DNA of 64,000 bases from the NCBI GenBank assembly GCA_016188005.1, contig JACPIQ010000008.1, positions 192,484 through 256,483 of the forward strand, written 5' to 3'. The notes below the pieces were generated by a model. It was not told the origin of the DNA, ran no database searches, and was given only the letters and a program-made list of their open reading frames with translations. The stretch comes from Candidatus Rokuibacteriota bacterium (GTDB lineage Bacteria > Methylomirabilota > Methylomirabilia > Rokubacteriales > CSP1-6). Position 1 is the stretch's first letter. Each line of letters opens with the position of its first letter. This document shows, one piece after another, positions 10,849 to 37,859 of the stretch. The position numbers and the translations under genes are program-made.

Positions 10849-10922
10849 GCGCCCCGATGAGGGCCGAAGGCCCGAAGAGGCCCAACCGCGAGCCGTGATG
10901 CCCCCCGTTCGAGCGAGATAAT
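10849..10922 (+). repeat. Hairpin element, locus 2
   Basis: This single copy fills the gap between the GntR gene and hyuA. It shows GCCCCGATGAG, then GGGCC-GAA-GGCCC (five pairs), GAAGAGGCCCAACCGC and a CGTTCGAGCGAGA block ending just before the hyuA ATG. The stem bases differ from locus 1 but remain complementary. The middle part is more diverged than at the other two loci. Confidence 0.7.
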
Positions 10923-10924
10923 AC

Positions 10925-16336: not shown

Positions 16337-16348
16337 GAGGCGCCCTCC

Positions 16349-17541: not shown

Positions 17542-17595
17542 GATGACGGCGGCTGCGATCGGGCGAATGGCCTCTGCTGGCGCGGGAATCCGTCG

Positions 17596-17759: not shown

Positions 17760-17773
17760 AGGTAAGGAGACCT

Positions 17774-19793: not shown

Positions 19794-19806
19794 GGAGGGC
19801 GGGGCT

Positions 19807-21420: not shown

Positions 21421-21422
21421 GG

Positions 21423-22616
21423 ATGACGCTCTTCTCCGGGGTGCGGGTGCTGGATCTCTCGCGCATGCTCGCCGGACCGTATGGCTCGATGCTGATGGCC
21501 GATCTTGGGGCGGAGGTGATCAAGATCGAGGAGCCGGACGGCGGTGACCCCATGCGGGGCATGGGGCCGCCCTTCCTCCCGAACGGCGAGAGCGCCTACT
21601 TCCTCAGCATCAACCGGAACAAGAAGAGCGTGGCGCTGGATCTCACCCAAGAAGCCGGCCGCGCCGTCCTCCGCGACCTCGCGCGCGTCGCCGACGTGGT
21701 GTGGGACAATTTCAGGCCGGGCGTGCTGGCGAGGCTGGGCGCAGACCCCGGGAGGCTCAGGGCCGTCAACCCACGCCTGGTCTGCTGCTCGATTTCCGCC
21801 TTCGGGCAGGAGGGACCGTATCGCGGCTGGCCGGCCTTCGATCTCGCGCTCCAGGCCATGGGCGGGGCCATGAGCATCACGGGGGAGGAGGGGCGCGCTC
21901 CCTTGCGCATGGGCCTGCCCATGGGCGACCTGGCGGGCGGGATGTTCGGCGCGCTCGCCGTGGCCGGGGCGCTGTTCAGGCGGGAGCGGACGGGGCAGGG
22001 AGGGATCGTGGACCTCTCGCTCCTGGACTGCCAGGTGTCACTGCTGACCTATCTCGCGCAGTACTTCTGGACCGACGGGAAGGTGCCCGGGCCGATGGGC
22101 TCGGGCCACACCTCGGTCGTGCCCTACCAGGCGCTGCCCGCGCGCGACGGCTACCTGGTCGTCGCCATCTTCGCCGAGAAGTTCTGGTCCGGCTTCTGCC
22201 GCGCCATGGAGCGGCCGGACATCGCGCGGGACCCGCGCTTCGAGACGAACCTCCAGCGCGCCGCAGCCAGGAGCGCGCTGATCGCGCTGCTGGAGGAGAT
22301 CTTCGCGACGCGGTCGGTGCACGACTGGCTCGAGGCGCTGCGCCGGGAGGGGGTGCCGGCGGCCCCGATCCAGTCGGTGGGCCAGGTGCTGTCCGACCCT
22401 CAGGTCAGGCATCGGCAGATGGTGGTGGAGCTGAGCCACCCTGCCCTGGGTCGCGTGCCAGCGCTCGGCACCCCGATCAAGGTGGACGGGGCGCTGGGGC
22501 TCGAGGTGCGGCCGGCGCCGCGGCTGGGGGAGCACACCGAGGAGGTGCTGAGGGGCCTCCTCGCCTACCAGGACGAGCGGGTGGAGTGCCTGAGGCGCGA
22601 GGGGGTGGCCCCGTGA
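21423..22616 (+). CDS. Class III (CaiB/BaiF) CoA-transferase
   Basis: The 397-residue protein has the interlocked-dimer CoA-transferase fold. The N-terminal GVRVLDLSRMLAGPY and ADLGAEVIKIE are conserved, and D169 in MGDLAGG aligns with the aspartate that carries the glutamyl/aspartyl-CoA anhydride in formyl-CoA transferase. These enzymes move CoA from succinyl-CoA, acetyl-CoA or a product thioester to an incoming acid. It follows the mutase by 2 nt and overlaps the molybdenum enzyme by 4 nt. It is the most likely step activating the pathway acid, alongside the PaaK-like ligase at the end of the region. Confidence 0.9.
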   Translation: MTLFSGVRVLDLSRMLAGPYGSMLMADLGAEVIKIEEPDGGDPMRGMGPPFLPNGESAYFLSINRNKKSVALDLTQEAGRAVLRDLARVADVVWDNFRPGVLARLGADPGRLRAVNPRLVCCSISAFGQEGPYRGWPAFDLALQAMGGAMSITGEEGRAPLRMGLPMGDLAGGMFGALAVAGALFRRERTGQGGIVDLSLLDCQVSLLTYLAQYFWTDGKVPGPMGSGHTSVVPYQALPARDGYLVVAIFAEKFWSGFCRAMERPDIARDPRFETNLQRAAARSALIALLEEIFATRSVHDWLEALRREGVPAAPIQSVGQVLSDPQVRHRQMVVELSHPALGRVPALGTPIKVDGALGLEVRPAPRLGEHTEEVLRGLLAYQDERVECLRREGVAP

Positions 22617-24910
22617 GCTTCGACATCATCGGCAAGGCGACGCCCAAGCGGGATGGCCTCGACAAGGTGACGGGCCGGACGCAGTATCTCCACGACCTCG
22701 CGCTGCCGCGCCTGGCCCACGGGGCCATCCTGAGGACCGCGTTCCCGCACGCGCGGATTGTGCGCATCGACACCGCTGCCGCCGAGCGCCTGCCCGGCGT
22801 CATCGGCGTGATCACGGCCGACGGGGTGGAGCAGCGCCCCTTCGGCTACGCGAAGGACCACCTGGCGCTCAAGGGCGGGCCGGGCAACCGGAAGGTCCGC
22901 TGCATCAGGGACGAGATCGCCGCCGTGGCGGCCCAGACGGCGGAGATCGCCCAGGAGGCCCTCGGGCTCATCGAGGTCGAGTACGAGGAGCTACCGGCGG
23001 TGTTCGATCTTGACTCCGCCCTCCGCCCGGGCGCGCCGCTCGTGCACGAGGAACTCGGCACGAACCTGGTGACCCTCCGCTACCAGTTCTCCCACGGCGA
23101 CGTCGAGGCCGGCTTCGCGCGCGCCGCGGCCGTCGCCGAGGGGACGTATCGGCTCACCTACGTGACCACGGCGTGTCTCGGGACCATGGTGTCGATCGCC
23201 TCCTGGGGAGCAGATGGCTCGCTCACCATGTGGACGACCACGCAGGTGCCCTTCCTCTACCAGCGCGATCTCGGAGAGGCGCTCGGGATCGGCGGGCACC
23301 GGGTGAGGGTGATCCAGCCGCCGGTCGGAGGCAACTTCGGGCGCGGCCTCGACCTCTACCCCATCGACATCATCGCCGCCCTCCTGGCCCGCCATGTCCG
23401 GCGGCCCGTCAAGATCGCCTTCGAACGCCTGGAGGAGTTCATCGCGAGCCCGACCCGCGAGCCCTGCGTCATCCACCTCCGGACGGCCGCGGACGCCGCC
23501 GGCCGGCTGCTGGCGCGCGAGGCCCGCGTCGTCATCGACAACGGCGCGTACGTCTCCTGGGGCTCGACGACGCCGTACGTCATGCTCTCCACGACGGCAG
23601 GACTCTACCGCTGCCCGGCCGTGCGCTTCGACACGACCATCGTCTACACCAACAACCCCTACTCGGGGTCGATGCGAGGCTACGGCAACCTCGAGGCAAC
23701 CTTCGCCATCGAGGCGCAGATGGACGACCTCGCCGAGCGGCTCGGGATGGACCGGATGGAGATCCGGCGCCGCAACGCGACGAAGACGGGGGACGTGAAC
23801 CCGCAGGGCAACGTGATCACCTCCTGCGCCATGACCGAGTGCCTGGACACGGTGGAGCGGGCGATCTCGCTGGCGGCACCCGGGGCGACGCGACCCGGCT
23901 GGAAGCGCGGTGTCGGGTATGCGGCCATGTTCCACGTGGCCGGCGGCGCGCGCGTGTACCGCTCGGACGGCTGCGGGGCCATCCTCAGACTCGACGACTT
24001 CGGCAAGGTGTTGCTGCTCACGGGCGCCAGCGAGATCGGCCAGGGGTCCGAGACCGTGCTCGCCATGATCGTGGCCGAAGAGCTGGGTATCCCGCTGGAG
24101 CGCGTGGAGGTGATCAACAGCGACACCTCCGTCAAGCCGTGGGACGTGGGCGTGCACGCCAGCCGGACGACCTTCATCGCGGGCAATGCAGCGCTCCAGG
24201 CCGCGCGCTCGCTGAAGCGCAGGCTCCTGGCGCTGGCGGCGGAGGTGATGGACGAGAAGGCCGAGGAGCTCGAGCTCGTCGGGGGACAGGTGCGCGTCCG
24301 GGGCCGGCCGGAGCGGAGCGTCCCGTACGAGCGCGTGGTGCGCGCCGGCCACTTCCGTCCCGGCGGCCAGGCGCTCGTCGCCGAGGCGTTCTACGATCCG
24401 CCGAACGAGATGCTGTCGAAGGATCTCCGGGGCAATGTCTCGGCGGCCTACGGGTTCGCCGCCCAGGCGGCGCTGGTGGAGGTGAGCGAGGAGACCGGGG
24501 AGGTGCGCGTCCTCCGGATCGTCTCCGCTCACGACGTGGGCCGGGCGCTGAACCCCATGGCCGCTGAGGGGCAGATTCACGGCGGGATCCACATGGGGCT
24601 GGGCTATGCGCTCAGCGAAGCGCTGCTGATCCAGGAGGGACGGGTACTCAACCCGCAGTTCATGGAGTATGCGCTCTTCCAGGCGACCGACATGCCGGAG
24701 ATCGACGTGCGCCTGATCGAGACAGTGGACCAGAGCGGCCCCTTCGGCGCCAAGGGCCTGGGTGAGTCCGGGGTGATCCCGGTGTCGGCAGCCATCGCCA
24801 ACGCGGTCAAGGACGCCATCGGCGTGCGCTTCACCGAGCTTCCCATCACCCCCCAGCGCGTTCACGCCGCCCTGGTCGCGGCGCGTAGCACAGGACGGGC
24901 GCCCCGATGA
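22613..24910 (+). CDS. Xanthine dehydrogenase-family molybdopterin-binding large subunit
   Basis: The 765-residue protein starts at the GTG inside the CoA-transferase stop. It carries the aldehyde oxidase/xanthine dehydrogenase a/b hammerhead domain at residues 1-125 and the molybdopterin-binding domain after about 140. Motifs include QPPVGGNFGRG near residue 230 and GAKGLGE with the catalytic Glu at 718. Members hydroxylate or dehydroxylate N-heterocycles, aldehydes, CO or 4-hydroxybenzoyl-CoA. No 2Fe-2S or FAD subunit gene is adjacent, which is unusual because these normally form one operon. The last residues (GRAPR and stop) come from the third hairpin element. Confidence 0.9.
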   Translation: MSFDIIGKATPKRDGLDKVTGRTQYLHDLALPRLAHGAILRTAFPHARIVRIDTAAAERLPGVIGVITADGVEQRPFGYAKDHLALKGGPGNRKVRCIRDEIAAVAAQTAEIAQEALGLIEVEYEELPAVFDLDSALRPGAPLVHEELGTNLVTLRYQFSHGDVEAGFARAAAVAEGTYRLTYVTTACLGTMVSIASWGADGSLTMWTTTQVPFLYQRDLGEALGIGGHRVRVIQPPVGGNFGRGLDLYPIDIIAALLARHVRRPVKIAFERLEEFIASPTREPCVIHLRTAADAAGRLLAREARVVIDNGAYVSWGSTTPYVMLSTTAGLYRCPAVRFDTTIVYTNNPYSGSMRGYGNLEATFAIEAQMDDLAERLGMDRMEIRRRNATKTGDVNPQGNVITSCAMTECLDTVERAISLAAPGATRPGWKRGVGYAAMFHVAGGARVYRSDGCGAILRLDDFGKVLLLTGASEIGQGSETVLAMIVAEELGIPLERVEVINSDTSVKPWDVGVHASRTTFIAGNAALQAARSLKRRLLALAAEVMDEKAEELELVGGQVRVRGRPERSVPYERVVRAGHFRPGGQALVAEAFYDPPNEMLSKDLRGNVSAAYGFAAQAALVEVSEETGEVRVLRIVSAHDVGRALNPMAAEGQIHGGIHMGLGYALSEALLIQEGRVLNPQFMEYALFQATDMPEIDVRLIETVDQSGPFGAKGLGESGVIPVSAAIANAVKDAIGVRFTELPITPQRVHAALVAARSTGRAPR

Positions 24911-24993
24911 GCGCCAAAGGCGCGAAGAGGCCAAACCGCAGGCGCGAAGAGGCCAAACCGCAACGCAGACTCTTCGACGTTCAAGCAAGAGGA
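24900..24993 (+). repeat. Hairpin element, locus 3, with internal 22-bp duplication
   Basis: The element starts GGCGCCCCGATGAG, with its TGA being the stop of the molybdenum enzyme. GCGCC-AAA-GGCGC forms five pairs, a base combination different from loci 1 and 2. GGCGCGAAGAGGCCAAACC and its following bases are present twice in tandem (22-bp period), then AACGCAGA and CGTTCAAGCAAGAGG, which here includes a usable ribosome-binding site for the V4R gene. Confidence 0.8.
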
Positions 24994-25005
24994 AAACAGC
25001 AGCCC

Positions 25006-25500
25006 ATGACCGAGCAGCCGACCCCGAGCCTGCTGGGGGAGCTCCGAGACGACGGCCACGGCCGGCTCCTGTATCGGGGATCGCGCTTCCTGCTGATCCG
25101 TCCCGAGACGCTGGTGGCCGTCCAGCGCGCCGTGGAGACGGCCGCCGGCTCCGGGGCGGCGGAGTGCTTCGCCGCCGGGGGCCGGGTGGGCGGCGCCCGC
25201 GCCGCCGCGGCTGTGGCCGGGGACGCCCGCGGGCGACTGGACCTGCTCGTGAAGATGGGACGGGAGCTGGGCTGGGGGGAGTTCGGCGTGGAGGCCTGGA
25301 GCCCGGTGGGGTTCGTCATCACGGTGAAGCACTCCCCCTTCGCCGAGGCCCATGGCCGGAGTCAGCGGCCCGTGTGCCACCTCATCCGCGGCGTCGTCGA
25401 GTCCTTCGCCGAGCAGCTCCTGGGTCGCCCGATGCAGGTCAGCGAGGCCAGCTGCGAGGCGGCCGGCGGCCCGGTCTGCCGCTTCGAGGCGCGGGCGTGA
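25006..25500 (+). CDS. V4R-domain protein (4-vinyl reductase-like small-molecule-binding domain)
   Basis: The protein has 164 residues from ATG 25006, with AGAGGA upstream; a longer in-frame start would read through the hairpin element. The C-terminal half fits the V4R fold: a W-G-x-F-x-V-E segment near residue 86, CHLIRGVVESFAEQLLG near 125 and the paired cysteines in ASCEAAGGPVCRFEA at the end, which bind zinc in this family. V4R domains sense hydrocarbons and phenols in activators such as DmpR and XylR and occur in bacteriochlorophyll biosynthesis. Here no DNA-binding or ATPase domain is attached. It may be a ligand-binding accessory protein; function is unknown. Confidence 0.75.
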   Translation: MTEQPTPSLLGELRDDGHGRLLYRGSRFLLIRPETLVAVQRAVETAAGSGAAECFAAGGRVGGARAAAAVAGDARGRLDLLVKMGRELGWGEFGVEAWSPVGFVITVKHSPFAEAHGRSQRPVCHLIRGVVESFAEQLLGRPMQVSEASCEAAGGPVCRFEARA

Positions 25501-25856
25501 CACGGGGGTCGCTCCGCGTCGGCATCACCACCATGGCGACGGAGCCGCCCGACCGCTTCCGCGCGCTGGTCCAGTTCACCGAGGAGAGCGGGTTCGACGA
25601 GCTGTGGGTCTGCGACTCGTCGCTGCACGCCCGCGACGTGTATGCTTCTCTCGCGCTCGTGGCGACGGGCTCACGACGTCTTCGCTTCGGTCCCAACTGC
25701 ACGGTGGCCGGCCCCGCAGGGCTCTGGATCGAGCGTCTCACCGACGTGGTCGCCCGCGGCATCCGCCACCTGAACATCCTCCTCCTGAGTGCCGACAAGC
25801 TCTCCATGGTGAAAGACCTCGGAGAGAAGGTCCTGCCAGACCTCCGGGCCCTCTGA
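25497..25856 (+). pseudogene. Remnant of a luciferase-like (F420/flavin-dependent) monooxygenase with internal deletion
   Basis: The reading frame encodes 119 residues from the GTG in the V4R stop. Residues 1-68 match the N-terminus of luciferase-like oxidoreductases (ALVQFTEESGFDELWVCDS, then ATGSRRLRFGPNCT). The next residues jump directly to a sequence like the C-terminal part of the family (ERLTDVVARGIRHLNILLL, then LGEKVLPDLR). Full proteins are about 330-350 residues, so some 200 central residues, including most of the barrel and the flavin phosphate site, are missing without a frame change. It is most likely an in-frame deletion derivative and inactive. It remains coupled to V4R (4-nt overlap) and hyuA copy 2 (1-nt gap). 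Confidence 0.7.
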
Positions 25857-25857
25857 G

Positions 25858-27915
25858 ATGGCCTACCGGATCGGAGTGGATGTGGGGGGGACCTTCACTG
25901 ACTTCCTCCTGCACCATCACGGAGAGGTCCCGGTGGTCGCCAAGACGCCGAGCACGCCCGAGGATCTATCGGAGGGCTTCCTCGTGGGTCTCGGCGAGCT
26001 CGCCGCGGCCAAGGGCATGGGGCTGAGGGAGTTCCTCGGCCGCGTGGACGTGATCGTCCACGGAACCACGGTGACGACGAACGCGGTGCTCACGGGCTCC
26101 GTCGCACGGGTAGGGCTGCTCACGACGCGAGGCTTCCGCGACGCCCTGGCCATGCGCCGGGGCATCCGCGAGGCCCAGTACGACAACCGGTGCGCCCCCC
26201 CCACGCCGCTGGTGCCGCGCTGGCTCCGCCTGCCCGTGACGGAGCGGGTGGAGGTGTCGGGCGAGGTCACGACGCCCCTCGAGCCGGAGAGTCTCGAGGC
26301 GGCGCTCGCGGGGCTCCGCGAGGCCGGCATCGAGGCGGTGGCAATCTGCTTCCTGCACGCCTGGGCCAACCCCGCCCACGAGATCCTCGCCGAGACGCGG
26401 GCGCTGGCGGCGCTGCCGGGCGCCTACGTGTCCCGCTCCTCGGCCCTCGTGCCCCAGATCCGCTTCACCGAACGCGTGAGCACCACGGTGCTCAACGCCG
26501 CCGTGGGCCCGGTGCTGTGCCGCTACCTCGACCGGCTCGGCGCGCGGCTGGGCGAGGTGGGGTTCCGCGGTGTGCTCCTGATCATGCAATCCAACGGGGG
26601 CGTGGCGGAGCCGGCGGCGGTACGGGCGGCGGCGGCCAGCACGCTCTTCTCCGGGCCCGCGGCGGCACCCACGGCCGCCCTCGCGTACGCGACGCCCCAC
26701 GGCGTTCGCGACTTCCTCACCGTGGACATGGGGGGTACGTCCTTCGACGTGTGCCTGGTTCGGGACGGCGCGGCAGCCATGACCACCGAGGGGCGCATCG
26801 CGCGCTATCCCTTCGGCCTCGCCGCGCTGGCCATCCACACCATCGGCGCCGGGGGGGGCTCCATCGGCTGGCTGGACGACGGAGGGCTCCTGCGCATGGG
26901 GCCCCGGAGCGCCGGAGCCGTCCCGGGACCCGCCTGCTACGGCCGCGGGGGAATCCCGCCGACGTGCACCGACGCCGACCTGCTGCTCGGCAGCCTCCGC
27001 GCGGAGCGCTTCCTGGGCGGCCGGCTGCGCCTGGACGCGGCGGCGGCGTGGCGCGCGGTGGAGACACTGGCGGGCCCGCTCCGGCTGTCCGTGGAGGAGA
27101 CGGCCGCAGGCATGGTGCAGGTGATCGACGCCAACATGGCTGCCGGGATCCGCCACGTGACAGTGGAGCGGGGACACGACCCGCGGGAATTCCTCCTGGT
27201 GGTCGGCGGCGGCGCGGGCCCGGTCCACGCCGCGGGGATCGCCGCCGAGCTGGGGCTCACGCGCATCCTGGTGCCGCGCGGCTCGCCCATCTTCTGTGCT
27301 GGGGGGCTCCTGCTCTCCGACCTCCGCCACGATCTCGTCCAGACCTACGTGACGCCCTTCGAGCGAGCCGAAGGTAACAGGCTGCGCGCCATCGTGGCTT
27401 CCCTCGGACGCCAAGGGCGCGACGCGGCCGGCGCCGAGCGGATCGGCGAGGGGCAGGTGACGCTCTCCTTCGCCTGCGACGTCCGGTATCTCGGCCAGTA
27501 CCACGAGCTGGCGGTGCCCTGGCTCCCGGACGAGGCGCAGGAGGGTGACCTCGGCGGAGTCGCGAAGCGCTTCCACGAGACGCATGACCGGCTCTATGGC
27601 TACGCGCTCCCGGATACGCCGCTCGAGCTGGTGAATGTCCGCGGGGTGGCCCTCGGGGTCACGGAGAAGCCCGCGCTGCCCGAGGTCCCGCCAGGGACGG
27701 GGGACGGGGCGCGGCGCGGCCGCCGTCCTGTGTGGATGGGCGAGGCCCGAGCCTTTGCGGAGACGGTTGTCTACGAGGGCGAGGCCCTCGGGGCGGGCGC
27801 GCGTCTGTCGGGACCCGCGGTGGTGGAGCTCGACACCACCACGGTGGTCGTCCCTCCCGCATGGCGCCTCGAAACCGACCGCCACGGTTCCTTCCTCCTG
27901 GACCGGCTCGCGTGA
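25858..27915 (+). CDS. hyuA: Hydantoinase/oxoprolinase subunit A (HyuA-like), copy 2
   Basis: The 685-residue protein is a second ATP-dependent HyuA-type subunit. GVDVGGTFTDF lies at residues 6-16, HGTTVTTNAVL near 71 and TVDMGGTSFDV near 288. The N-terminal, central and C-terminal domains are of normal length. It differs clearly from copy 1 in the spacer after residue 95 (MRRGIREAQYDNR versus the copy 1 RSKRYQVYDLQ), where substrate-specific differences occur between hydantoinases, oxoprolinases and carboxylases. It overlaps hyuB copy 2 by 4 nt and begins directly after the luciferase-like remnant. Confidence 0.92.
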   Translation: MAYRIGVDVGGTFTDFLLHHHGEVPVVAKTPSTPEDLSEGFLVGLGELAAAKGMGLREFLGRVDVIVHGTTVTTNAVLTGSVARVGLLTTRGFRDALAMRRGIREAQYDNRCAPPTPLVPRWLRLPVTERVEVSGEVTTPLEPESLEAALAGLREAGIEAVAICFLHAWANPAHEILAETRALAALPGAYVSRSSALVPQIRFTERVSTTVLNAAVGPVLCRYLDRLGARLGEVGFRGVLLIMQSNGGVAEPAAVRAAAASTLFSGPAAAPTAALAYATPHGVRDFLTVDMGGTSFDVCLVRDGAAAMTTEGRIARYPFGLAALAIHTIGAGGGSIGWLDDGGLLRMGPRSAGAVPGPACYGRGGIPPTCTDADLLLGSLRAERFLGGRLRLDAAAAWRAVETLAGPLRLSVEETAAGMVQVIDANMAAGIRHVTVERGHDPREFLLVVGGGAGPVHAAGIAAELGLTRILVPRGSPIFCAGGLLLSDLRHDLVQTYVTPFERAEGNRLRAIVASLGRQGRDAAGAERIGEGQVTLSFACDVRYLGQYHELAVPWLPDEAQEGDLGGVAKRFHETHDRLYGYALPDTPLELVNVRGVALGVTEKPALPEVPPGTGDGARRGRRPVWMGEARAFAETVVYEGEALGAGARLSGPAVVELDTTTVVVPPAWRLETDRHGSFLLDRLA

Positions 27916-29657
27916 GCGCCGATCCAGTCTTCGCCTCCGTCCTCGAGCGGAGGCTCAAGGCCATCACGGAGGAGATGGGGCTGACGCTGCTCCGCACCAC
28001 GCGCTCGCCCATCCTCAGCGAGGCGCGGGACTTCGTCACCGGCCTCTACGGCCCGCGCGGGGAGATCCTCGCCCAGTCGGAGTACATCCCGATCCTGGCC
28101 TTTGCGCTGCAGCCCGCCTGCCGCGCCGTGATCGCCGCCTTCCGCGACGACGTCCACCCGGGCGATGTCTTCCTCCACAACGACGTCTTCTCGGGGGGAA
28201 ACCAGAACAACGACGTGGCGGTGTTCCGGCCGGTCTTCGTCGACGGGCGGGTGGCGGCCTGGGCCGCGACCACGGGGCACCAGGCCGACATCGGCGGCGC
28301 TCAGGCGGGGGGCTACAACCCCAGGGCCACGGAGGTGTGGCAGGAGGCGCTCAGGATCCCGCCGCTCAGGATCGTCGAGAGGGGGGCGGTGCGGGACGAT
28401 GTCTGGCGGCTGGTGTTCTCGAACGTGCGACTGCCCATCGTGGAGCAGGACATCCGTGCCCAGATGGGCGGCACCGTGGTGGGCGAGCGGGGGTTGATGG
28501 AGCTGTACCGGCGCCACGGGGCGGCCAGGGTGGAGGAGCACATCCGCTACCTCTTCGACGCGGCCGAGCGGCGCATGCGCACGGAGCTGTCGCACATCCC
28601 CGACGGGACCTGGGTGGGCGAGAGCACGGTCTTCTACGACGGGCATCACGACGGCAGCCGGCACCCGATCCGCGTGACCATCCAGACGCGGGGCGGCGAG
28701 ATCAGCCTGGACTACGCGGGCACCGCGCCCCAGACACCGGGCTTCGTCAACGCGCCCTATGCCTCCTCCTTCTCGGCAATCCTGCTGACGCTTCTGATGC
28801 TCGTGGATCCCGACATCCCACACAACGAGGGCATCCTCCGGCCGATCCGCGTCCACATCCCGGCCGGGTGCATCCTGAACGCGGACTTCCCGGCGGCGAC
28901 GACCTTCGGCAACACGCTGGCCGGGCCGCATTCCGATGCGATCTTCCGGGCCCTGGCGCCGGCCATGCCCGAGCGCGTGTCAGCCGGGTGGAACCGGATG
29001 CTCGGGATGACCGTGGCGGGAATGGACCCGCGCGCCGGCCGCCGCTACGTGGACATTCTGTTCCTGGCGCTCAAGGGCGGGTCGGGGGCCGTGGCTGGCT
29101 GCGACGGCTACGACCATATTGGGCTCATCAACACGGCGGGCGGTCTCCTGGCGCAGGACTACGAGATGCTGGAGGTCCAGACCCCCCATCGGCTGCTGCG
29201 CCACGAGTACCAGACCGACTCGGCGGGAGCGGGACGCTGGCGCGGCGGCTGCGGTGTGGAGACGGAACTCGAGATCCACGGCGACGAGGTGACAGGGATC
29301 GTCTTCGGCGACGGCGTGGACGAGGAGGCGCGGGCCTTCGGGCTCTTCGGCGGTCACTCGGGCGGCCTCAATCGGATCGAGCTCCGGACGCCGGCGGGAC
29401 AGCTCCTGGCACCCCGCTCGAAGGATGTGATCGCCATCCCGCGCGGCAGCCTCTTCCGGCAGGCCGCGGGCGGCGGCGGCGGCCACGGCGATCCCCGGGA
29501 GCGTCCGGCCAGTCTCGTGGCGGACGAGGTGCGGGACGGCCTGATCTCGGTGGAGGCAGCCCGGCGGGACTACGGCGTCTGGGTGGACCCGGACACGCTG
29601 GCGTCGGACGAGGCGCGCACGGCCGCGCTCAGGGCCCGGCCGGGGGGGGCCGCATGA
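27912..29657 (+). CDS. hyuB: Hydantoinase/oxoprolinase subunit B (HyuB-like), copy 2
   Basis: The 581-residue protein starts at the GTG in the hyuA stop. It has the family pattern KAITEEMGLTLLRTTRSPILSEARDFVTG at the N-terminus, GDVFLHNDVFSGGNQNND near residue 85, TTGHQADIGGAQAGG near 120 and a Gly/His-rich end GGGGGHGDPRER. HNDV and GHQADIGG carry the presumed metal ligands and are intact. Copy 1 has LNDP and HHTDVGG at these sites, so the two pairs are from different subfamilies. It overlaps the permease gene of the second importer by 4 nt (ATGA), tying hydrolase and transporter production together. Confidence 0.92.
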   Translation: MSADPVFASVLERRLKAITEEMGLTLLRTTRSPILSEARDFVTGLYGPRGEILAQSEYIPILAFALQPACRAVIAAFRDDVHPGDVFLHNDVFSGGNQNNDVAVFRPVFVDGRVAAWAATTGHQADIGGAQAGGYNPRATEVWQEALRIPPLRIVERGAVRDDVWRLVFSNVRLPIVEQDIRAQMGGTVVGERGLMELYRRHGAARVEEHIRYLFDAAERRMRTELSHIPDGTWVGESTVFYDGHHDGSRHPIRVTIQTRGGEISLDYAGTAPQTPGFVNAPYASSFSAILLTLLMLVDPDIPHNEGILRPIRVHIPAGCILNADFPAATTFGNTLAGPHSDAIFRALAPAMPERVSAGWNRMLGMTVAGMDPRAGRRYVDILFLALKGGSGAVAGCDGYDHIGLINTAGGLLAQDYEMLEVQTPHRLLRHEYQTDSAGAGRWRGGCGVETELEIHGDEVTGIVFGDGVDEEARAFGLFGGHSGGLNRIELRTPAGQLLAPRSKDVIAIPRGSLFRQAAGGGGGHGDPRERPASLVADEVRDGLISVEAARRDYGVWVDPDTLASDEARTAALRARPGGAA

Positions 29658-30532
29658 GCGCGGCTGCCGTGGTTCACGTCGTCGTCAGCGGGCTGGCCAC
29701 GGGGAGCATCTACGCCCTGATGGCGCTGGCACTGGTGATCATCTACAACGCCACGCGGACGCTCAACTTCGCCCAGGGGGAGATGCTGATGGTCTCGACC
29801 TTCGTGGCCTGGGCGGCCCAGCGCGCCTGGCAGCTCCCCCTGCCGGTCACGCTGCTGGTGGCGGCCGCGGCCGGCGCCGGCGTGGCGCTCGTCTTCGAGC
29901 GCGCGATCATCCGCCGCTCCATCGCCGCCACCCACTGGGACGTGCTCATCATCACGGTGGGGCTGTCGCTGATGCTGCGCGCTGCGGCGGGGCTGATCTG
30001 GACGCACGAGGACTTCGCCTTCCCCTCCTTCTTCGGCAACCGCCCCATGGTGGTGGGTCCGATCAGGCTGGCGCCCGTATCGCTGGGAATCATCGGCGGC
30101 TCGCTCCTTCTCATGCTGGGGCTCTACGTTCTCTTCACCCACACGCGCATCGGGCGGGCCATGCGCGCGGTGGCGCAGAACCAGCGGGCGGCGCGGCTCA
30201 TGGGGATCAGCGTCGAGCGCATGTACTCGCTGTCATGGGTGCTCGCGGGGGTGGTGGGTGCCATCGCAGGCGTCCTCGTCGCGCCGGTGACCTTCCTCTC
30301 CACGAAGATGGGGCTCGTCGTGATCAACGGCTTCACGGCGGCGGTGATCGGGGGCTTCGGCTCCATGCCGGGGGCCGTGGCGGGGGGGATGCTGCTGGGC
30401 GTGATCGAGAACCTGGCGCCGCTGTACCTGCCCTCGGGAATCCGCTACTCCGTCCCCTTCCTGGTCTTGATCGCCATCCTCCTGATCCGCCCGGCGGGGC
30501 TCTTCGGTCGGGTCGAGCAGAGGAAGGTCTGA
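29654..30532 (+). CDS. livH: Liv-type ABC transporter permease LivH (system 2)
   Basis: The 292-residue permease has about eight membrane segments. Family motifs are LNFAQGEMLMVSTF near residue 38, QNQRAARLMGISVERMYS near 178 and IGGFGSMPGAVAGG near 233. Unlike system 1, the operon order is hyuAB, livH, livM, binding protein, livG, livF. It shares 4 nt with hyuB and 1 nt with livM, so it is part of a continuous message starting at least at the V4R gene. Confidence 0.93.
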   Translation: MSAAAVVHVVVSGLATGSIYALMALALVIIYNATRTLNFAQGEMLMVSTFVAWAAQRAWQLPLPVTLLVAAAAGAGVALVFERAIIRRSIAATHWDVLIITVGLSLMLRAAAGLIWTHEDFAFPSFFGNRPMVVGPIRLAPVSLGIIGGSLLLMLGLYVLFTHTRIGRAMRAVAQNQRAARLMGISVERMYSLSWVLAGVVGAIAGVLVAPVTFLSTKMGLVVINGFTAAVIGGFGSMPGAVAGGMLLGVIENLAPLYLPSGIRYSVPFLVLIAILLIRPAGLFGRVEQRKV

Positions 30533-31449
30533 TGCGGCGGTGGGCGCTGGGCGCGGCGGCGGCAGGGCTGCTCGCCTGGCCCTGGGTGGCGCCCCGGTAC
30601 CTGATCTTCCTCGCCAGTCTCGTGCTGGTCAACGCGGTGGTGGCCATCGGCCTCAATCTCCTGAGCGGCTATACGAATCAGCTCTCCTTCGGCCACGCGG
30701 GCTTCCTCGCCATCGGGGCCTATGCCGCCGCGCTGCTCACCATCCACGCCCCCACGGTGCCGGTGATCGTCACGCTCGCGGCGGCGGGAGCAGTCACGGC
30801 GGCGGTCGGGCTCGGCTTCGGCGTGCCGTGCTTGAGGCTCGGCGGGCTCTATCTCAGCATGGCGACGCTGGCGTTCGGCTTCGTGGTGTCCGAGGTCATC
30901 CTGAGCCTGGACGGGCTGACCCTGGGGGCCGACGGCCTGCGCGTCCCGGCGGGCCGTCTCGCGGGCTTCACGCTGGCGACGGACACCGCGCGCTACTACC
31001 TGACGGCGGCTGTGGCCGCAGCGCTCGTGGCCGCGGCCGTCAACCTGACGCGGAGTCGGGTGGGCCGCGCCTTCCTCGCCATCCGGGAGAGCGAGGTGGC
31101 GGCCCAGGCCAGCGGCGTCTCGCTGGCTGCCTACAAGACCGCCGCCTTCGGCGTCTCGGCCTTCTACACGGGCGTGGCCGGCGGGCTCTTCGCCTTCGTG
31201 GTCGGCTTCCTCTCGCCCGATGCCTTCGATGTCTTCCTCTCCGTGGACTTCGTCGTCATGATCATCCTCGGCGGGCTCGGCTCGGTACCGGGCTCGATCG
31301 CGGGCGCGGCCGTCGTGACGGTACTGCACGACTGGCTGGCCGCCTTCCAGAACTTCCGGCCCCTCATCTTCGGCGCGATCCTCATCGCCTGCATGCTCTT
31401 CATGCCCGGCGGGATGGCACACGCGCTGAGGCCGCCGGGGCGCCGGTGA
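30532..31449 (+). CDS. livM: Liv-type ABC transporter permease LivM (system 2)
   Basis: The 305-residue inner-membrane protein has about nine hydrophobic segments. LSFGHAGFLAIGAYAAALL near residue 50, FLAIRESEVAAQASGVSLAAYK near 180 and IILGGLGSVPGSIAGAA near 245 are the conserved LivM regions. It starts with the ATG in TGATG at the livH stop. The C-terminal FGAILIACMLFMPGGMA is the usual final segment. It should pair with LivH and the two ATPases 1-2 kb downstream. Confidence 0.93.
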   Translation: MRRWALGAAAAGLLAWPWVAPRYLIFLASLVLVNAVVAIGLNLLSGYTNQLSFGHAGFLAIGAYAAALLTIHAPTVPVIVTLAAAGAVTAAVGLGFGVPCLRLGGLYLSMATLAFGFVVSEVILSLDGLTLGADGLRVPAGRLAGFTLATDTARYYLTAAVAAALVAAAVNLTRSRVGRAFLAIRESEVAAQASGVSLAAYKTAAFGVSAFYTGVAGGLFAFVVGFLSPDAFDVFLSVDFVVMIILGGLGSVPGSIAGAAVVTVLHDWLAAFQNFRPLIFGAILIACMLFMPGGMAHALRPPGRR

Positions 31450-31475
31450 CCCACACCCGACAGAGGAGGACGTCC

Positions 31476-32636
31476 ATGCGACTCATCCTTTCGCTCCTCA
31501 CCGCGGCGCTGGCCCTCGGGGCAAGCGCGCCCGCCCTCGCCCAGCAGGGAGTCACCGACACGGAGATCGTGGTCGGCTGCTCCAACTCGTTCTCGGGTCC
31601 GCTGGCATTCACGGGCGAGCAGCTGACGAAGTTCGGCATCGACCTCTACTTCAAGGGCGTCAATGATGCCGGCGGCATCCACGGCCGGAAGGTGCGCACG
31701 GTCTACTACGACGACGGCTACCGGCCGCAGGACGCCGTCGCCAACACGAGGAAGCTGGTGGAGCAGGACAGGGTGTTCGCGATCCTGGCCTCGCAGGGGA
31801 CGGCCCCCGTCGCGGCCACCGTGGGCTACCTCGAGGAGAACCGCGTCCCCCTCCTCTTCCCGTACCAGGGCTCCACCGTGACGCGCGGGAAGAAGTACGT
31901 CCTCAATGGCATGACGCTCTACGACCGCCAGGCGCGGATGATGGTGGACTACCTGGTGGGGCAGCGCAGGCTCAAGACCTTCGCAGCGATCTACCAGGAC
32001 GACGAGTACGGCCGGGCCTTCCTGGGCCCGTTCGAGAAGGACCTGGCGCGCCACGGGCTCAAGCTCGCGGCGGCGGAGCCCGTCAAGCGGGGGGCCACGG
32101 ATGTGAGCGCCCAGATCGCCAAGCTCCAGGCCGCCAGGCCCCAGGTGACCTTCCTCGTGCTCACCCCAGGGCCGGGGGCCCAGGCACTCAAGGAACGGCA
32201 GAAGATCGGCTGGACCGACACGCTGATGGTCTCCTCCGGGCCGCTCACCGACGAGCGCTTCCTGGGGCTCGCCGGCGAGGCCGCGGAGGGGACCGAGGGG
32301 CTGTCCCTCTGGCCTGACCCGCTGACCTCCGAGCTCCCCGGTGTCCGCGCCTACCGGGAGGCGCTCCGGAAGTTCGCGGCCAAGGCCGAGCCCAACCGCT
32401 ACGCGCTCCACGGCTACGTCGCGGCCATGGTGTTCACCGAGGCGGCCAAGCGGGCCGGCAAGGGCCTGACGCGCGAGTCGCTCATGACCGCGCTCACGTC
32501 GATCAAGGCCTTCGAGACCGGCATCCTGCCGCCGATCAGCATCGGGGCCGACCTCGAGCCGCTCAAGCAGGGCTTCTGGGTGCGCATGGAGAAGGGGCGC
32601 TTCAAGCCCCTCACGGACTGGCTCAAGTCGGAGTGA
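31476..32636 (+). CDS. livK: Branched-chain amino acid-type ABC transporter substrate-binding protein (system 2)
   Basis: The binding protein has 386 residues from ATG 31476, with AGAGGAGG at good spacing. Residues 1-22 are a Sec signal peptide (LSLLTAALALGASAPALA, cut before QQG). The mature N-terminus GVTDTEIVVGCSNSFSGPLAF is the type I ligand pocket edge. The segment GYRPQDAVANTRKLVEQDRVFAI is typical of the Peripla_BP_6 family members linked to aromatic or amide compounds. The ligand is probably the HyuAB copy 2 substrate, because the genes are coupled. It shares 4 nt with livG. Confidence 0.92.
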   Translation: MRLILSLLTAALALGASAPALAQQGVTDTEIVVGCSNSFSGPLAFTGEQLTKFGIDLYFKGVNDAGGIHGRKVRTVYYDDGYRPQDAVANTRKLVEQDRVFAILASQGTAPVAATVGYLEENRVPLLFPYQGSTVTRGKKYVLNGMTLYDRQARMMVDYLVGQRRLKTFAAIYQDDEYGRAFLGPFEKDLARHGLKLAAAEPVKRGATDVSAQIAKLQAARPQVTFLVLTPGPGAQALKERQKIGWTDTLMVSSGPLTDERFLGLAGEAAEGTEGLSLWPDPLTSELPGVRAYREALRKFAAKAEPNRYALHGYVAAMVFTEAAKRAGKGLTRESLMTALTSIKAFETGILPPISIGADLEPLKQGFWVRMEKGRFKPLTDWLKSE

Positions 32637-33412
32637 CCGTGGCCCTCCTCAGCGTCGAGGATCTCTCCATCGCCTTCGGCGGCCTCGCCGCCCTGTCCGG
32701 CGTGACCCTCGAGGTCAACGAGGGGGAGATCTTCGCGCTGATCGGGCCCAACGGCGCTGGCAAGACCACGGTGTTCAACGTGCTGACCGGTCTCTACCGC
32801 CCGACGGCCGGCCGCGTCGCCTATGCCGGGACCGACCTGCTGCGTCTGGCTCCCCACGAGATCGCCCGCCGCGGGGTGGGGCGCACCTTCCAGAACACCG
32901 AGGTCTTTCGCCAGCTGACGGCGCTGGAGAACGTGCTCATCGGCGAGCACGGGCAGCTCCGGAGCTCGCTGTGGAGCGCAGCGCTGGGGCTACCCAGGGT
33001 GCGCCGGGAGGAGGCGGCGGCCCGGCGGCGGGCGCTCGAGCTGCTCGAGCGCTTCGGGCTCCGGGACGCCGCGGAGGTGGAGGCGGGGAGTCTCCCGCTC
33101 GGGAGCCAGAAGCGCCTGGAGATCGCCCGGGCGCTTGCCTCCGGACCCCGCCTCCTCCTGCTGGACGAGCCCGCGGGCGGCCTCAACCCCACGGAGACGC
33201 GGACGCTCATGGAGCTGATCTGCGCGCTGCGGGAGGGGCTCAAGCTCACCGTTATGGTGGTCGAGCACGACATGGACCTGGTCATGGCCATCTCGGACCG
33301 GATCGCGGTCCTGGACTACGGGCGGAAGATCGCGGAGGGCAAGCCGCGCGAGATCGCGGCGGACCCCGCGGTGATCGAGGCCTATCTGGGCAGAGATGAA
33401 GCCGACGCTTGA
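32633..33412 (+). CDS. livG: Liv-type ABC transporter ATPase LivG (system 2)
   Basis: The 259-residue ATPase has Walker A GPNGAGKTT (near residues 39-47), the LivG-type signature LPLGSQKRLEIARAL, Walker B LLLLDEPAGGLNP and switch His in VVEHDMD. The insertion near residues 110-130 is typical for LivG. The GTG start overlaps the binding-protein stop by 4 nt, and the end overlaps livF by 17 nt. Compared with the system 1 LivG, the signature here is conventional, so the two importers are not a recent duplication. Confidence 0.93.
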   Translation: MTVALLSVEDLSIAFGGLAALSGVTLEVNEGEIFALIGPNGAGKTTVFNVLTGLYRPTAGRVAYAGTDLLRLAPHEIARRGVGRTFQNTEVFRQLTALENVLIGEHGQLRSSLWSAALGLPRVRREEAAARRRALELLERFGLRDAAEVEAGSLPLGSQKRLEIARALASGPRLLLLDEPAGGLNPTETRTLMELICALREGLKLTVMVVEHDMDLVMAISDRIAVLDYGRKIAEGKPREIAADPAVIEAYLGRDEADA

Positions 33413-34139
33413 GCTCGAGGAGGTCAGTGTGTACTACGGCAAGCGCCGGGCGCTCGAGGGGGTCTCGCTCCAGCTCGGCGAGGGAGAGATCGTCACGCTC
33501 CTCGGGGCCAACGGGGCGGGGAAGTCCACGACGCTCCGGGCGGTGTCGGGCCTCGTCCGGCCCTTGCGCGGGCGCATCCTCTACGACGGCCGCGACGTCA
33601 CGGGCTGGCCGGCGGATGCCATCGTGGCGGCGGGCATCGGGCATGTGCCCGAGGGGCGGGACCTCTTTCCCGAGTTCACGGTGCTTGATAACCTCCTCGT
33701 CGGCGGCCACACGGTGGGGCGGCGGGAGCTGGCCGCCCGGCTCGAGCTGGGCTTCGAGCTGTTCCCCCTCCTCCGCGAGCGGAAGCGGCAGCGGGCCGGG
33801 ACCCTGTCGGGGGGCGAGCAGCAGATGCTGGCCATGGCGCGGGCCCTGGTGTCCCGGCCGCGCGTCCTCCTGCTGGACGAGCCGTCACTGGGGCTGGCCC
33901 CCATACTCACGCGGGAGATCTTCCGCGTGATCCGGCAGATCAACCAGCGGGGGGTGTCCGTGCTGCTCGTGGAGCAGAACGCGCGCCGCGCGCTGGGCGT
34001 GGCTGACCGCGGCTACGTGCTCGAGACCGGGCGGCTCGTGGTCGCGGGCCCCTCGCGGGAGCTGCTGGAGGACCAGCGGGTGCGCACCGCCTATCTCGGC
34101 CTCAGCCCGCCGGGCGCCGGCGCGGACAAGGGAGAGTGA
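33396..34139 (+). CDS. livF: Liv-type ABC transporter ATPase LivF (system 2)
   Basis: The 247-residue ATPase has Walker A GANGAGKST (near residues 36-44), LSGGEQQMLAMARAL, Walker B LLLDEPSLGLAP and VEQNARRA with the usual LivF Asn-Ala in place of the switch His. It completes the second importer. The acyl-CoA dehydrogenase gene follows after 4 nt with a GAGAGTGAGCGC leader, so transport and CoA-ester oxidation share the message. Confidence 0.93.
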   Translation: MKPTLELEEVSVYYGKRRALEGVSLQLGEGEIVTLLGANGAGKSTTLRAVSGLVRPLRGRILYDGRDVTGWPADAIVAAGIGHVPEGRDLFPEFTVLDNLLVGGHTVGRRELAARLELGFELFPLLRERKRQRAGTLSGGEQQMLAMARALVSRPRVLLLDEPSLGLAPILTREIFRVIRQINQRGVSVLLVEQNARRALGVADRGYVLETGRLVVAGPSRELLEDQRVRTAYLGLSPPGAGADKGE

Positions 34140-34143
34140 GCGC

Positions 34144-35304
34144 ATGGTCCGCTTCACCCCGGAACAGGAGGAGTTCAGGAAGTCGGTGGCCCGCTTCGTG
34201 GCCGCCGAGGTCGCGCCTGCCGCGGCGGCCATGGACGACCGGGCGGAGTTCCCCAGGGCGCTCTTCCGTCGTCTCGGGGAGCTCGGGTACCTGGGGCTGC
34301 GCTATCCCGAGGCCTACGGCGGCGCCGGCTGCGACATGGTCACCTACTGCCTCTTCGCCGAGGAGCTGGCCCTGGGCTCGCTGTCGCTCGCGGCCGTGGG
34401 GGGCATGCAGTCGCTGATGGGCACGTACTTCATCTACAGGTACGGCAGCGACGAGATCCGGCAGCGCTACCTCGTCCCCGCGCTCCGGGGCGAGCTCGTG
34501 GCCACCTTCGCGCTCACCGAGCCCGATGCCGGCTCCGACGTCGCGAACATCAAGGCGCGGGCCGAGCGGCGCGGCGCCGGCTGGGTGCTGAGGGGACGCA
34601 AGATCTGGGTCACCAACGCCCCCGTCGCGGACGTCCTCACGGTGGCCGCCAAGACCTCGGCGGAGCGCGGGGTGAAGAACATCGCCCTCTTTCTGCTGGA
34701 CCGGGCGACCATGCGGGGGATCTCCCTCAGCAAGAAGATCGACAAGATGTCCGTGCGAGCCTCCGAGACGGGGGAGATCGTCCTCGAGGACGTGGAGGTG
34801 CCGGACGGGCACCTCCTGGGCGGCGAGACGGGCGGGGTGGAGAAGGTCGGGGGGGTGCTCGCCGAGGCGCGCATCATGACCGCCGCGCTGTCGGTGGGGC
34901 TGGCCCGCGCGGCGTACCAGGCTGCGCTCGACTACGCGCGCCAGCGGACGGCCTTCGGGAAGCCCATCGTCGAGCATCAGGCCATCGGCTTCAAGCTCGC
35001 GGACATGCTGACGGCGATCCACGCCGCGACGCTCATGACCTACCAGGCGGCGGGGCGCCTGGACGCCGAGCAGCCGGTGGGCCGGGAGGCCGCCATGACC
35101 AAGCTCTTCGCTTCCGAGATGGCCGTGCGGGTCACCGACGACGCCGCGCGCATCCTGGCCTCCTACGGGCTCGCCATGGAGTACCCGGTGCAGCGCTACT
35201 TCCGCGACGCTCGCTTCCTGCTGCCGGGCGGTGGCACCTCCGAGATCCTGCGCCTCATCATCGGGCGGGAGCTGGACTGGGACCGCGGGGGAGCCTTCGC
35301 ATGA
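34144..35304 (+). CDS. Acyl-CoA dehydrogenase family protein with altered catalytic-base position
   Basis: The 386-residue flavoprotein shows the acyl-CoA dehydrogenase fold: FALTEPDAGSD near residue 121, a WVTNA FAD contact near 157, RTAFGKPIVEHQAIGF near 262 and TSEILRLIIGREL at the C-terminus. The catalytic glutamate normally sits in YEGTSE. Here the same place reads GGGTSE, with Gly363 where the Glu should be. The alternative Glu position of isovaleryl-CoA and long-chain dehydrogenases appears to be Ala, with a Glu one residue earlier (LAEARIM). FAD-binding residues are intact. It may use another base, act in a different reaction, or be inactive. The last 4 nt overlap the ligase gene. Confidence 0.85.
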   Translation: MVRFTPEQEEFRKSVARFVAAEVAPAAAAMDDRAEFPRALFRRLGELGYLGLRYPEAYGGAGCDMVTYCLFAEELALGSLSLAAVGGMQSLMGTYFIYRYGSDEIRQRYLVPALRGELVATFALTEPDAGSDVANIKARAERRGAGWVLRGRKIWVTNAPVADVLTVAAKTSAERGVKNIALFLLDRATMRGISLSKKIDKMSVRASETGEIVLEDVEVPDGHLLGGETGGVEKVGGVLAEARIMTAALSVGLARAAYQAALDYARQRTAFGKPIVEHQAIGFKLADMLTAIHAATLMTYQAAGRLDAEQPVGREAAMTKLFASEMAVRVTDDAARILASYGLAMEYPVQRYFRDARFLLPGGGTSEILRLIIGRELDWDRGGAFA

Positions 35305-36599
35305 ACGGGTCGCCGGCGCCCATGTTCCAGCCCTCGGTAGAGACGCGCCCGCGGGAGCAGCTCGAAGCCCTCCAGCTCGAGCGGATGCGCCGCACGCTCG
35401 GTCTCATCAAGGAGAACGCGGCCTACCGCAAGCGCCTCGGCTCCGTGGACGCCGAGGCGCTCCGGTCCGCCGCCGACTGGGCGCGGCTCCCGTTCCTGAC
35501 CAAGGATGCGCTGCGCGACGCCTACCCTCTCCAGCTCTGCTGCGCGCCCCGAGGAACCATCAAGCGGGTGCACATGTCCTCCGGGACCACCGGCAATCCC
35601 ATCGTGAACCCGTACACCCGCGCCGACATCGCCCAGTGGGGCGAGGTCATGGCCCGCTGCTACGTGGCGGCGGGCGTCACCTCTGCCGACGTCGTCCAGA
35701 TCACGCCGTCCTTCGGGCTGTTCACCGGAGGCTTCGGCTTCCACTACGGCGCCGAGCGGCTGGGCGTCATGGTGGTGCCGGCGGGCGCCGGGCGCAGTGC
35801 CCTGCAGCTCAAGCTCATGAAGGACCTGGGCGCGACGGTGCTGGCGGGCATCGCTACCTACCCGCTGCGCCTGCTCGAGGTCGCGCGGGAGGAAGGCTTC
35901 GACCTGCGGGAGCTGAGGCTGCGGGTGGCCATCCTGGGATCGGAGATGTGGTCCGATGACCTGCGCGCCCTCATCGAGCGCGAGCTCGGCATCGAGACCT
36001 TCGACATCATCGGCATGACCGAGAGCGGCGGGCCGGGGCTCGGCATCGACTGCCGGGCCCACGGCGGGATCCACGTCTGGGAGGACCACTACTACTGCGA
36101 GATCGTCGATCCCCTGACCGGCAGCCTGCGCCCGGACGGGCAGGAGGGGGAGCTGGTGCTCTCGACGCTCACACGCGAGGGACTGCCCCTCGTCCGGTAC
36201 CGGACCCACGACCTCACCCGCGTGGTGAGCCGGGATCCCTGCGCCTGCGGGCGTACCCATCTCCGGCTCGACCGGCTGCGGGGGCGCACCGATGACATGG
36301 TGATCTTCAAGGGGGTGAACTTCTACCCGTGCCAGATCGAGTCGCTGGTCGTGGGGCGAGCAGGCCTCGGCCACGAGTACCAGGTGCTGCTCGAGCGCAG
36401 CCCCGAGGGCGCCGACCGGATGCGCCTGCTCGTCGAGGTGAAGCCGGATTTCGATCCGGAGAGCCTGAGGGGGCTCCAGCGGGAGTTCAAGGATCTGCTC
36501 AACCTCACGCCGGAAGTGACGACCCTCAAGGAGGGAGGGATCCCGCGACCCCAGGGGAAGGCCGTGAGGGTCGTGGACCGTCGCGCCACCCAACCATGA
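35301..36599 (+). CDS. paaK: Phenylacetate-CoA ligase family protein (PaaK-like)
   Basis: The 432-residue adenylate-forming enzyme has the ATP phosphate loop SSGTTGNP near residue 93, FDIIGMTESGGPG near 234 and YRTHDLTRVV near 300. The C-terminal lobe RTDDMVIFKGVNFYP with the catalytic Lys domain follows. Cysteines in DPCACGRTHLRL match the zinc-binding hairpin of PaaK. It activates phenylacetate or related aryl acids to CoA thioesters with ATP. It is the last gene of the left-hand unidirectional block, 57 bp before the dif-like site. Exact acid unknown; aryl or heteroaromatic acids are likely from family. Confidence 0.9.
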   Translation: MNGSPAPMFQPSVETRPREQLEALQLERMRRTLGLIKENAAYRKRLGSVDAEALRSAADWARLPFLTKDALRDAYPLQLCCAPRGTIKRVHMSSGTTGNPIVNPYTRADIAQWGEVMARCYVAAGVTSADVVQITPSFGLFTGGFGFHYGAERLGVMVVPAGAGRSALQLKLMKDLGATVLAGIATYPLRLLEVAREEGFDLRELRLRVAILGSEMWSDDLRALIERELGIETFDIIGMTESGGPGLGIDCRAHGGIHVWEDHYYCEIVDPLTGSLRPDGQEGELVLSTLTREGLPLVRYRTHDLTRVVSRDPCACGRTHLRLDRLRGRTDDMVIFKGVNFYPCQIESLVVGRAGLGHEYQVLLERSPEGADRMRLLVEVKPDFDPESLRGLQREFKDLLNLTPEVTTLKEGGIPRPQGKAVRVVDRRATQP

Positions 36600-36738
36600 G
36601 TGCCCGCGACGGCTGCGGCTTCCTCCGGCGAGCGGGCGACGTGTCGCTGAGCCCGGACTTAACATAATGCACCTTATCGGACATCAGATCGCCCTCGCGG
36701 GACTCCCGAGGCGCAGGGAGAGAGCAAACAGCAGCGCC
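36600..36738. other. Convergent intergenic region between paaK and the TPR gene
   Basis: Two genes end here from opposite sides. The GC-rich left part contains GCCCGC/GCGGGC arms (about 36603-36638), a possible terminator without T-tract. The centre is a distinctly AT-rich island carrying the dif-like sequence at 36657-36684. The right part has a CTCCC/GGGAG small stem on the minus strand. No coding sequence is credible in it. Confidence 0.6.
36657..36684 (-). other. dif: Candidate dif site (XerC/XerD chromosome dimer resolution site)
   Basis: Read on the minus strand, the 28 bp consist of an 11-bp left arm ATGTCCGATAA, a 6-bp centre GGTGCA and an 11-bp right arm TTATGTTAAGT. The right arm differs from the Escherichia coli XerD-binding arm (TTATGTTAAAT) by one base. 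The left arm carries the CCGATAA half known from actinobacterial dif sites. Arm lengths and the 6-bp spacer are exactly those of dif. It is an AT-rich island in 70% GC DNA, between convergent genes, at the point where gene orientation switches from all + to mostly -. No xer gene is nearby, as is normal for chromosomal dif. Confidence 0.75.
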
Positions 36739-37401
36739 TTACTGCTTTGGAGGGGTCTCGGGGCTGGCGAGCCGGCTACGGATGTCGGCGGCGCGCCGGC
36801 TATCCGGGCGCTCCTTGAGCAGGCGCGAGTAAGTCTCGCGCGCCGCCGCCGGATTGCCGCCGAACTCCTGGGCACGGGCCAATCCCAAGAGCCCCTCCTC
36901 GTAGAGGAAATCCTTCGGGGTCAGCCCGCCGAGGGCCGCCTGAAAGGCGACCTGGGCCCTGGCGTGGTCGCGCTGAGCCTCCCAGGTGTATCCGATGCCG
37001 ACAGCCGCCAGGCTCCTCAGGGTGGCCGTGGCGCCCTTGGCGATGGCGATCTCGTAGGCGCCGCGCGCGGCGGCGTGCTGGCCGGCCTCGAAGCGGAGAT
37101 TGCCGAGCCGGTAGGCCGCCTCGGCGGCTCCGGAGAATCGCGGGTACTCGGTGAGGACGGCCTCGAGAGCCCGGAGCGCTCGGTCACGGGCCTCGGCCGA
37201 CGCTCCGGCCGCCGTGGCCTGCTGGGCGAGCTCCGCTGCAGCGACGAGCGCCAGGCGGCCACGCGCGTCCTGCGCGTTGTACCAGCTGTAGCCGCCGAAG
37301 GCCGCGGCCCCCAGCAGGCTCAGCGCGGCGAGCGCCACGACGGTCCAGCGCACCACACGGGAGGTCCTGCGCCAGGCCGCCAGAAGATCCGGCACCGGCA
37401 T
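36739..37401 (-). CDS. Membrane-anchored tetratricopeptide-like protein (YfgM-type)
   Basis: The 220-residue protein has an N-terminal cytoplasmic tail, one membrane segment at about residues 18-38 (VVRWTVVALAALSLLGAAAFG) and an Ala-rich helical domain with TPR-like helix pairs (AAEAAYRLGNLRFEAGQHAAARGAYEIA; LGLARAQEFGGNPAAARETYSRLL). The layout resembles YfgM/TPR_21 proteins, which sit on the outer face of the inner membrane and assist secretion or envelope biogenesis. The bactofilin gene lies immediately upstream with a 1-nt overlap, suggesting a shared envelope or cytoskeletal role. No enzyme motif is present. Confidence 0.75.
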   Translation of the reverse strand: MPVPDLLAAWRRTSRVVRWTVVALAALSLLGAAAFGGYSWYNAQDARGRLALVAAAELAQQATAAGASAEARDRALRALEAVLTEYPRFSGAAEAAYRLGNLRFEAGQHAAARGAYEIAIAKGATATLRSLAAVGIGYTWEAQRDHARAQVAFQAALGGLTPKDFLYEEGLLGLARAQEFGGNPAAARETYSRLLKERPDSRRAADIRSRLASPETPPKQ

Positions 37402-37859
37402 CAGCCTCCGGCCCGGGGCGCGGTGGGGCGAGTCGTGGCCGGGCGCTCCACCCAGATCTCCCCCTTCACGGAGGCGCCGTCGGCGGCCGAGAAGCTTCCC
37501 GTGCGGAGGGTGCCGGTGAGAACGCCCGAGGGCAGGATCTCCACGCGCGTCGACGCCGAAAGGTTGCCGCGCACGGTCCCGCCGATCACGATGGCCGCGG
37601 CGTCGATGTTGGCATCCACCTGGGCGCCCTCGCCCACGAGCACGCGCCCGGTCACCTTGATCTCGCCCTCGAACTTGCCGAGGATCTGGAAGTCCCCTTC
37701 CCCGGCCAGCTCGCCCCGGAAGGAGAGGCGGCCGCCGATGCCCGCGCTCGCCGGGACGCTGACGCTGTCGCTGCGCCGGGGCGCCGGCTCCTCGGCCTCG
37801 GGATCGCTGTCCGCGCCGCTCAGGCCGAGGTAGCCGAGCGCGGCGCGCATCACGCCCAC
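37401..37859 (-). CDS. Bactofilin family cytoskeletal protein
   Basis: The 152-residue protein has the bactofilin core (DUF583) from about residue 40 to 135. It is a run of short beta strands with hydrophobic residues at regular spacing and turns such as GEFEG, VGEGAQVDANI, IGGTVRGN and LPSGVLTG, which build a right-handed beta helix that polymerises. The N-terminal 40 residues and the Pro/Thr-rich C-terminal tail are disordered, as usual. Bactofilins scaffold cell-wall enzymes and affect cell shape. The gene is divergent from the Nudix gene; the 89-bp region between them should contain both promoters, but I see only a TATGCT (37903-37908) on the + strand. Confidence 0.9.
   Translation of the reverse strand: MGVMRAALGYLGLSGADSDPEAEEPAPRRSDSVSVPASAGIGGRLSFRGELAGEGDFQILGKFEGEIKVTGRVLVGEGAQVDANIDAAAIVIGGTVRGNLSASTRVEILPSGVLTGTLRTGSFSAADGASVKGEIWVERPATTRPTAPRAGG

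Follow-up and report, generated by a model that had tools for sequence, protein, structure and literature searches.

The 28 bp at 36657–36684 on the minus strand of the window, by which we mean the whole stretch of 64,000 nucleotides analysed here, represent, with a probability of about 97%, the host's own chromosomal dif site at the replication terminus, where chromosome dimers would be resolved by XerCD and FtsK. Both the coordinates and the strand given in the original prediction were correct, and its reading of the sequence as dif and as terminus is strongly supported by a single copy in the genome, a skew extremum no more than 1.6 kb away, conservation in relatives, and a genome in which XerC, XerD and FtsK are all encoded. 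Of the findings named there as speaking against it, a distant skew extremum, several copies and arms not conserved in relatives, none emerged as far as a draft genome allows this to be judged. With the site, the terminus of replication is located in a genome that is uncultured and fragmented, and the family-wide model of dif built around it can help to identify the contigs that carry the terminus in other drafts of the class. The XerCD-dif mechanism itself is textbook knowledge. The lineage is probably Rokubacteriales (Methylomirabilota); our literature search found no paper naming both Rokubacteria and XerC.

The dif site and its position in the genome

Read on the minus strand, the site is composed of ATGTCCGATAA-GGTGCA-TTATGTTAAGT (on the plus strand, ACTTAACATAA-TGCACC-TTATCGGACAT), and it is located in the 139-bp gap of a convergent gene pair with stops at 36599 and 36739. 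The features by which dif is known are present; a length of 28 bp, two 11-bp inverse arms around 6 bp, and a XerD arm of the form TTATGT.AA. In the window, the only exact match to TTATGTTAA is the site itself, where shuffling gives an expectation of 0.05 chance matches with up to one mismatch. Moreover, one copy per genome had been expected in the original prediction, and with as many as 3 mismatches allowed, the 28-mer indeed occurs only once in the whole 5.37 Mb draft genome (140 contigs, about 71% GC). The 350 kb contig C8, of which the window covers positions 192484–256483, was analysed entire; a weight matrix derived from the sites of the family scores the dif site at 52 bits, and all the rest of the contig remains below 8 bits. 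The features of the window are collected in Table 1.

Table 1. Features of the window that are related to the dif site, with positions counted from the first letter of the window.
Feature	Position	Strand	Remarks
dif site, 28 bp	36657..36684	-	Read on the minus strand: XerC arm, 6-bp centre, XerD arm
Predicted XerD-binding arm TTATGTTAAGT	36657..36667	-	TTATGT invariant in 19 family sites; assigned through the known conserved XerD arm
6-bp central region GGTGCA	36668..36673	-	Varies most among relatives at its inner four bases
Predicted XerC-binding arm ATGTCCGATAA	36674..36684	-	TC.GATAAG unchanged across the 19 family sites
Cumulative GC-skew maximum of the contig	38290 (C8:230,773)		From the cumulative G-C skew of C8
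Left flank: AMP-binding (acyl-CoA ligase-like) gene	35301..36599	+	Convergent towards dif
Right flank: TPR gene	36739..37401	-	Conserved neighbour of dif across the family
Bactofilin gene	37401..37859	-	Next conserved neighbour
PaaA/PaaC-like gene	3659..4489	+	In the family it normally flanks dif on the left; in the window it is 32 kb off
32 kb block	4490..36656		Separates the usual left neighbour from dif; absent there in other genera

Replication terminus, strand polarity and the recombination machinery

The genome being a draft of 140 contigs, skew was computed on single contigs (C8 and C112). The cumulative G-C skew of C8 rises almost steadily from the left end of the contig up to 230,773 and declines beyond it, and the dif site, which starts at C8:229,140, lies 1.6 kb from this maximum; at the level of the contig, the extremum looked for near the site is thus in place. 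The original prediction had placed the terminus at a skew minimum, and this has to be reversed, as the cumulative (G-C) skew has its maximum there. In fact, the sole DnaA C-terminal domain found in the genome is at 11,525 on another contig (C112), beside the cumulative skew minimum of that contig at 11,192. The minimum at dnaA and the maximum near dif together indicate the usual sign of the skew, with the origin at the minimum and the terminus at the maximum.

An independent test of the interpretation as dif and terminus is offered by a complete relative (G033), which consists of a single contig of 2,752,854 bases and in which a model built from the window's family only predicts dif at 1,169,464. 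In the 20-kb stretches sampled from this chromosome, skew is mostly positive before the predicted site and mostly negative after it, stepping from +0.074 to -0.075 at dif, and the local cumulative skew maximum, at 1,167,945, is 1.5 kb from the site. For 42 draft relatives, short stretches flanking the site were compared; the skew stepped in the expected direction in 29 of them (p = 0.02), which weakly supports the terminus reading.

Gene orientation, on which the original prediction of a terminus partly rested, follows the same switch in part. The plus orientation claimed for the left side was borne out by the Pfam-supported genes tested, and the mostly minus orientation claimed for the right side holds at 36.7–37.9 kb and for all Pfam-supported genes tested at 47–64 kb, but not at 37.9–46.9 kb, where six Pfam-supported genes are on the plus strand and one is on the minus strand.

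The argument drawn from KOPS octamers pointing to the site is not supported. The list of octamers was incomplete, their number is at chance and their polarity is as the skew predicts. The window carries 23 GGGNAGGG octamers with 24.1 expected; left of dif, 10 are directed towards it and 2 away, and right of it, 5 towards and 6 away. In the whole of C8, 58 are directed towards dif and 27 away from it, where the numbers expected from a Markov model of the oriented strand are 52–60 and 27–33, respectively. The counts being within this expectation, their polarity is the general polarity of GC skew, and neither enrichment nor polarity of GGGNAGGG beyond composition and skew was detected in C8. Searching the same contig for other guiding words by k-mer polarity returned only G-rich and codon-like words. 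One FtsK with a gamma domain is encoded (contig C95, L020), and it aligns with solved FtsK gamma domains. At the positions aligned with N1296, R1300 and E1303, three residues of E. coli FtsK gamma that are reported to contact KOPS, it has P, R and D, so that the arginine alone is kept. Perhaps, given this and the lack of GGGNAGGG enrichment, the FtsK of this lineage reads a different guiding sequence, although we would put the odds somewhat against it.

Tyrosine recombinases are matched 16 times in the genome, and two of these matches are full-length Xer proteins. One is a XerD equivalog (343 bits, cut-off 330) encoded on C8 at about 70 kb from dif and the other is a XerC equivalog (344 bits, cut-off 335) encoded on C63; both match solved XerD and both are far under the XerS cut-off. 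In XerCD-dif recombination, FtsK acts at the septum, where it moves along the DNA towards dif; XerD, activated by the gamma domain, makes the first strand exchange, and a second one carried out by XerC resolves the dimer. We infer XerC and XerD binding, FtsK activation and catalysis at the dif of the window along the same lines; an odd number of crossovers would join the sister chromosomes into a dimer, septal FtsK would bring the two copies of dif together, XerD on TTATGTTAAGT, once activated by the gamma domain, would exchange the first pair of strands, and XerC on ATGTCCGATAA would complete the second exchange, leaving the dimer resolved.

Conservation in the class and variable surroundings

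Among 94 genomes of the class, the arm pattern, searched with up to 3 mismatches, matched 22, and the reversed pattern used as control matched none (0/94). The same-genus genomes differ from the arms by 0 and 3 mismatches and the other genera of the family by 1–3. Both arms are kept in relatives, as had been anticipated, and 17 of 28 columns are invariant in an alignment of 19 sites from the family. A sequence model of these 19 sites finds a match in 72/94 class genomes and in 48 of the 53 that are of good quality (completeness of 90% or more, contamination of 5% or less), with one match per genome in all but five of the 72.

Two candidates were set aside during this search; a 3-mismatch match to the arm pattern in G026, which was not confirmed by the sequence model, and the AGATAACATAAA...TTCTCGGACAT sequences of G020, which occur three times in a genome whose model-predicted dif is elsewhere (C12:71369). 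In G020 (L236, L237), three similar dif-like sequences, AGAYAACATAAA-N5-TTCTCGGACA, are located away from the predicted dif and are perhaps the ends of a repeated element. In two other genomes (G022:C39, L222/L223; G021:C70, L230/L231), an extra, inverted sequence resembling the XerD arm, TTATGTTGACC, is separated by 3–4 bp from the XerD arm itself, with which it forms an 11-bp inverted repeat.

The order dif, TPR gene, bactofilin gene is kept throughout the family. In 49 of the 52 family stretches with dif, the TPR gene is found on the XerC-arm side and on the minus strand (the remaining three break off shortly past dif), in 39 of these 49 it is within 300 bp of dif, and bactofilin often follows next.

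An imperfect inverted repeat in such an intergenic gap could also be a palindrome arisen by chance, or a terminator of transcription between the two convergent genes, and the 28-mer is indeed imperfectly symmetrical and flanked by convergent genes. Yet its sequence is kept beyond what symmetry requires, as seen in the invariant columns of the family alignment and in the conservation of the motif in the class; nearly every matching genome has one copy, in the family the same gene lies alongside, and a terminator would not be confined to the switch of the skew. We therefore regard this explanation as extremely improbable.

On the other side of dif, the neighbourhood is less stable. The PaaA/PaaC-like gene is found within 3.5 kb of dif, opposite to the TPR gene, in 37 genomes, whereas in the genus of the window it is either 32 kb from dif or does not appear in the 20 kb analysed. 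This difference indicates that the block now lying in between, composed mostly of metabolic and transport genes on the plus strand, was gained or moved into the slot. A second or degenerate dif was scored neither by the weight matrix at the far end of this block in C8 nor beside the insertions of relatives. With no second dif-like sequence there, the far end shows no mark of integration by XerCD.

In two relatives belonging to one genus, toxin-antitoxin genes were observed between dif and the TPR gene (G008:C43, L235, about 45–1550 bases past dif, and G088:C96, L228/L229); PemK/MazF-like with RHH and PIN with RHH. G008 has two contigs with dif (C22, L234, and C43, L235), the left flanks of which are the same and the right flanks different, and both contigs end nearby, which suggests either that strains differ here or that DNA was inserted at dif. 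A conserved slot next to variable DNA offers a small, testable case of plasticity at the terminus.

Alternatively, the 28-mer could be an att or dif-like site that belongs to an integrated XerCD-dependent element and not the host's own dif. The 32 kb block, seen in this genus only, would fit such an origin, and so would the presence of the same motif on 22 viral contigs and the toxin-antitoxin genes flanking dif in G008 and G088. Nevertheless, the genome has a single site, the far end of the block has neither a second nor a degenerate dif, and the neighbour on the right is the one conserved family-wide; even a site acquired in this way would still serve as the dif of the chromosome. An element-derived site is accordingly very unlikely in our view, and the site is best read as the chromosomal dif of the host.

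Comparison with known dif and Xer systems

The original prediction described the arms as an unusual mix of an actinobacterial and a proteobacterial one. The combination turned out to be common, as a scan with TTAACATAAT-N5-TTATCGGA found it in at least 120 genome stretches from many phyla. Among the matches listed are Sphingomonadales, Acidobacteriota, Bacillota and Bacteroidota, and also Nitrospirota, Elusimicrobiota, Spirochaetota and Deltaproteobacteria in the old sense. The first position of the site, which is outside this pattern, is A in 110 of the 120 matches listed and is thus dif-like as well. The tabulated dif sites of Proteobacteria include XerC arms with CGATAA and a TTATGTTAAGT XerD arm (PMC2731167). 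The exact dif-like motif CTTRACATAAT-N5-TTATCGGA was also noted on 22 IMG/VR contigs (L180–L201), which could be phages using XerCD or host contigs called viral.

With the Acinetobacter pdif modules (PMC10132070, PMC13141974) and with dif-integrating elements, the likeness is in the toxin-antitoxin genes beside dif in G008 and G088; unlike in these modules, no module enclosed by two dif sites was found, and the site in the genome of the window stands alone. Site-specific dimer resolution is common to the single-recombinase systems XerS/difSL and XerH/difH, but the genome of the window has equivalogs of both XerC and XerD and its site is of the classical type. The closest likeness is with the dif/XerCD systems described in Proteobacteria (PMC2731167) and across 16 phyla (PMC3025954), with which the site shares the 28 bp in an 11-6-11 layout, the conserved XerD arm TTATGT.AA and the more variable XerC arm, as well as being single, intergenic and at a skew maximum in a genome encoding XerC and XerD. 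It differs from them only in details of the arms, ATGTCCGATAA being paired with TTATGTTAAGT in a combination whose core occurs in many phyla, and its centre GGTGCA is richer in GC than TGTATA. The dif of the window is therefore of the ordinary XerCD type, and it is new only as a member from a little-studied lineage.
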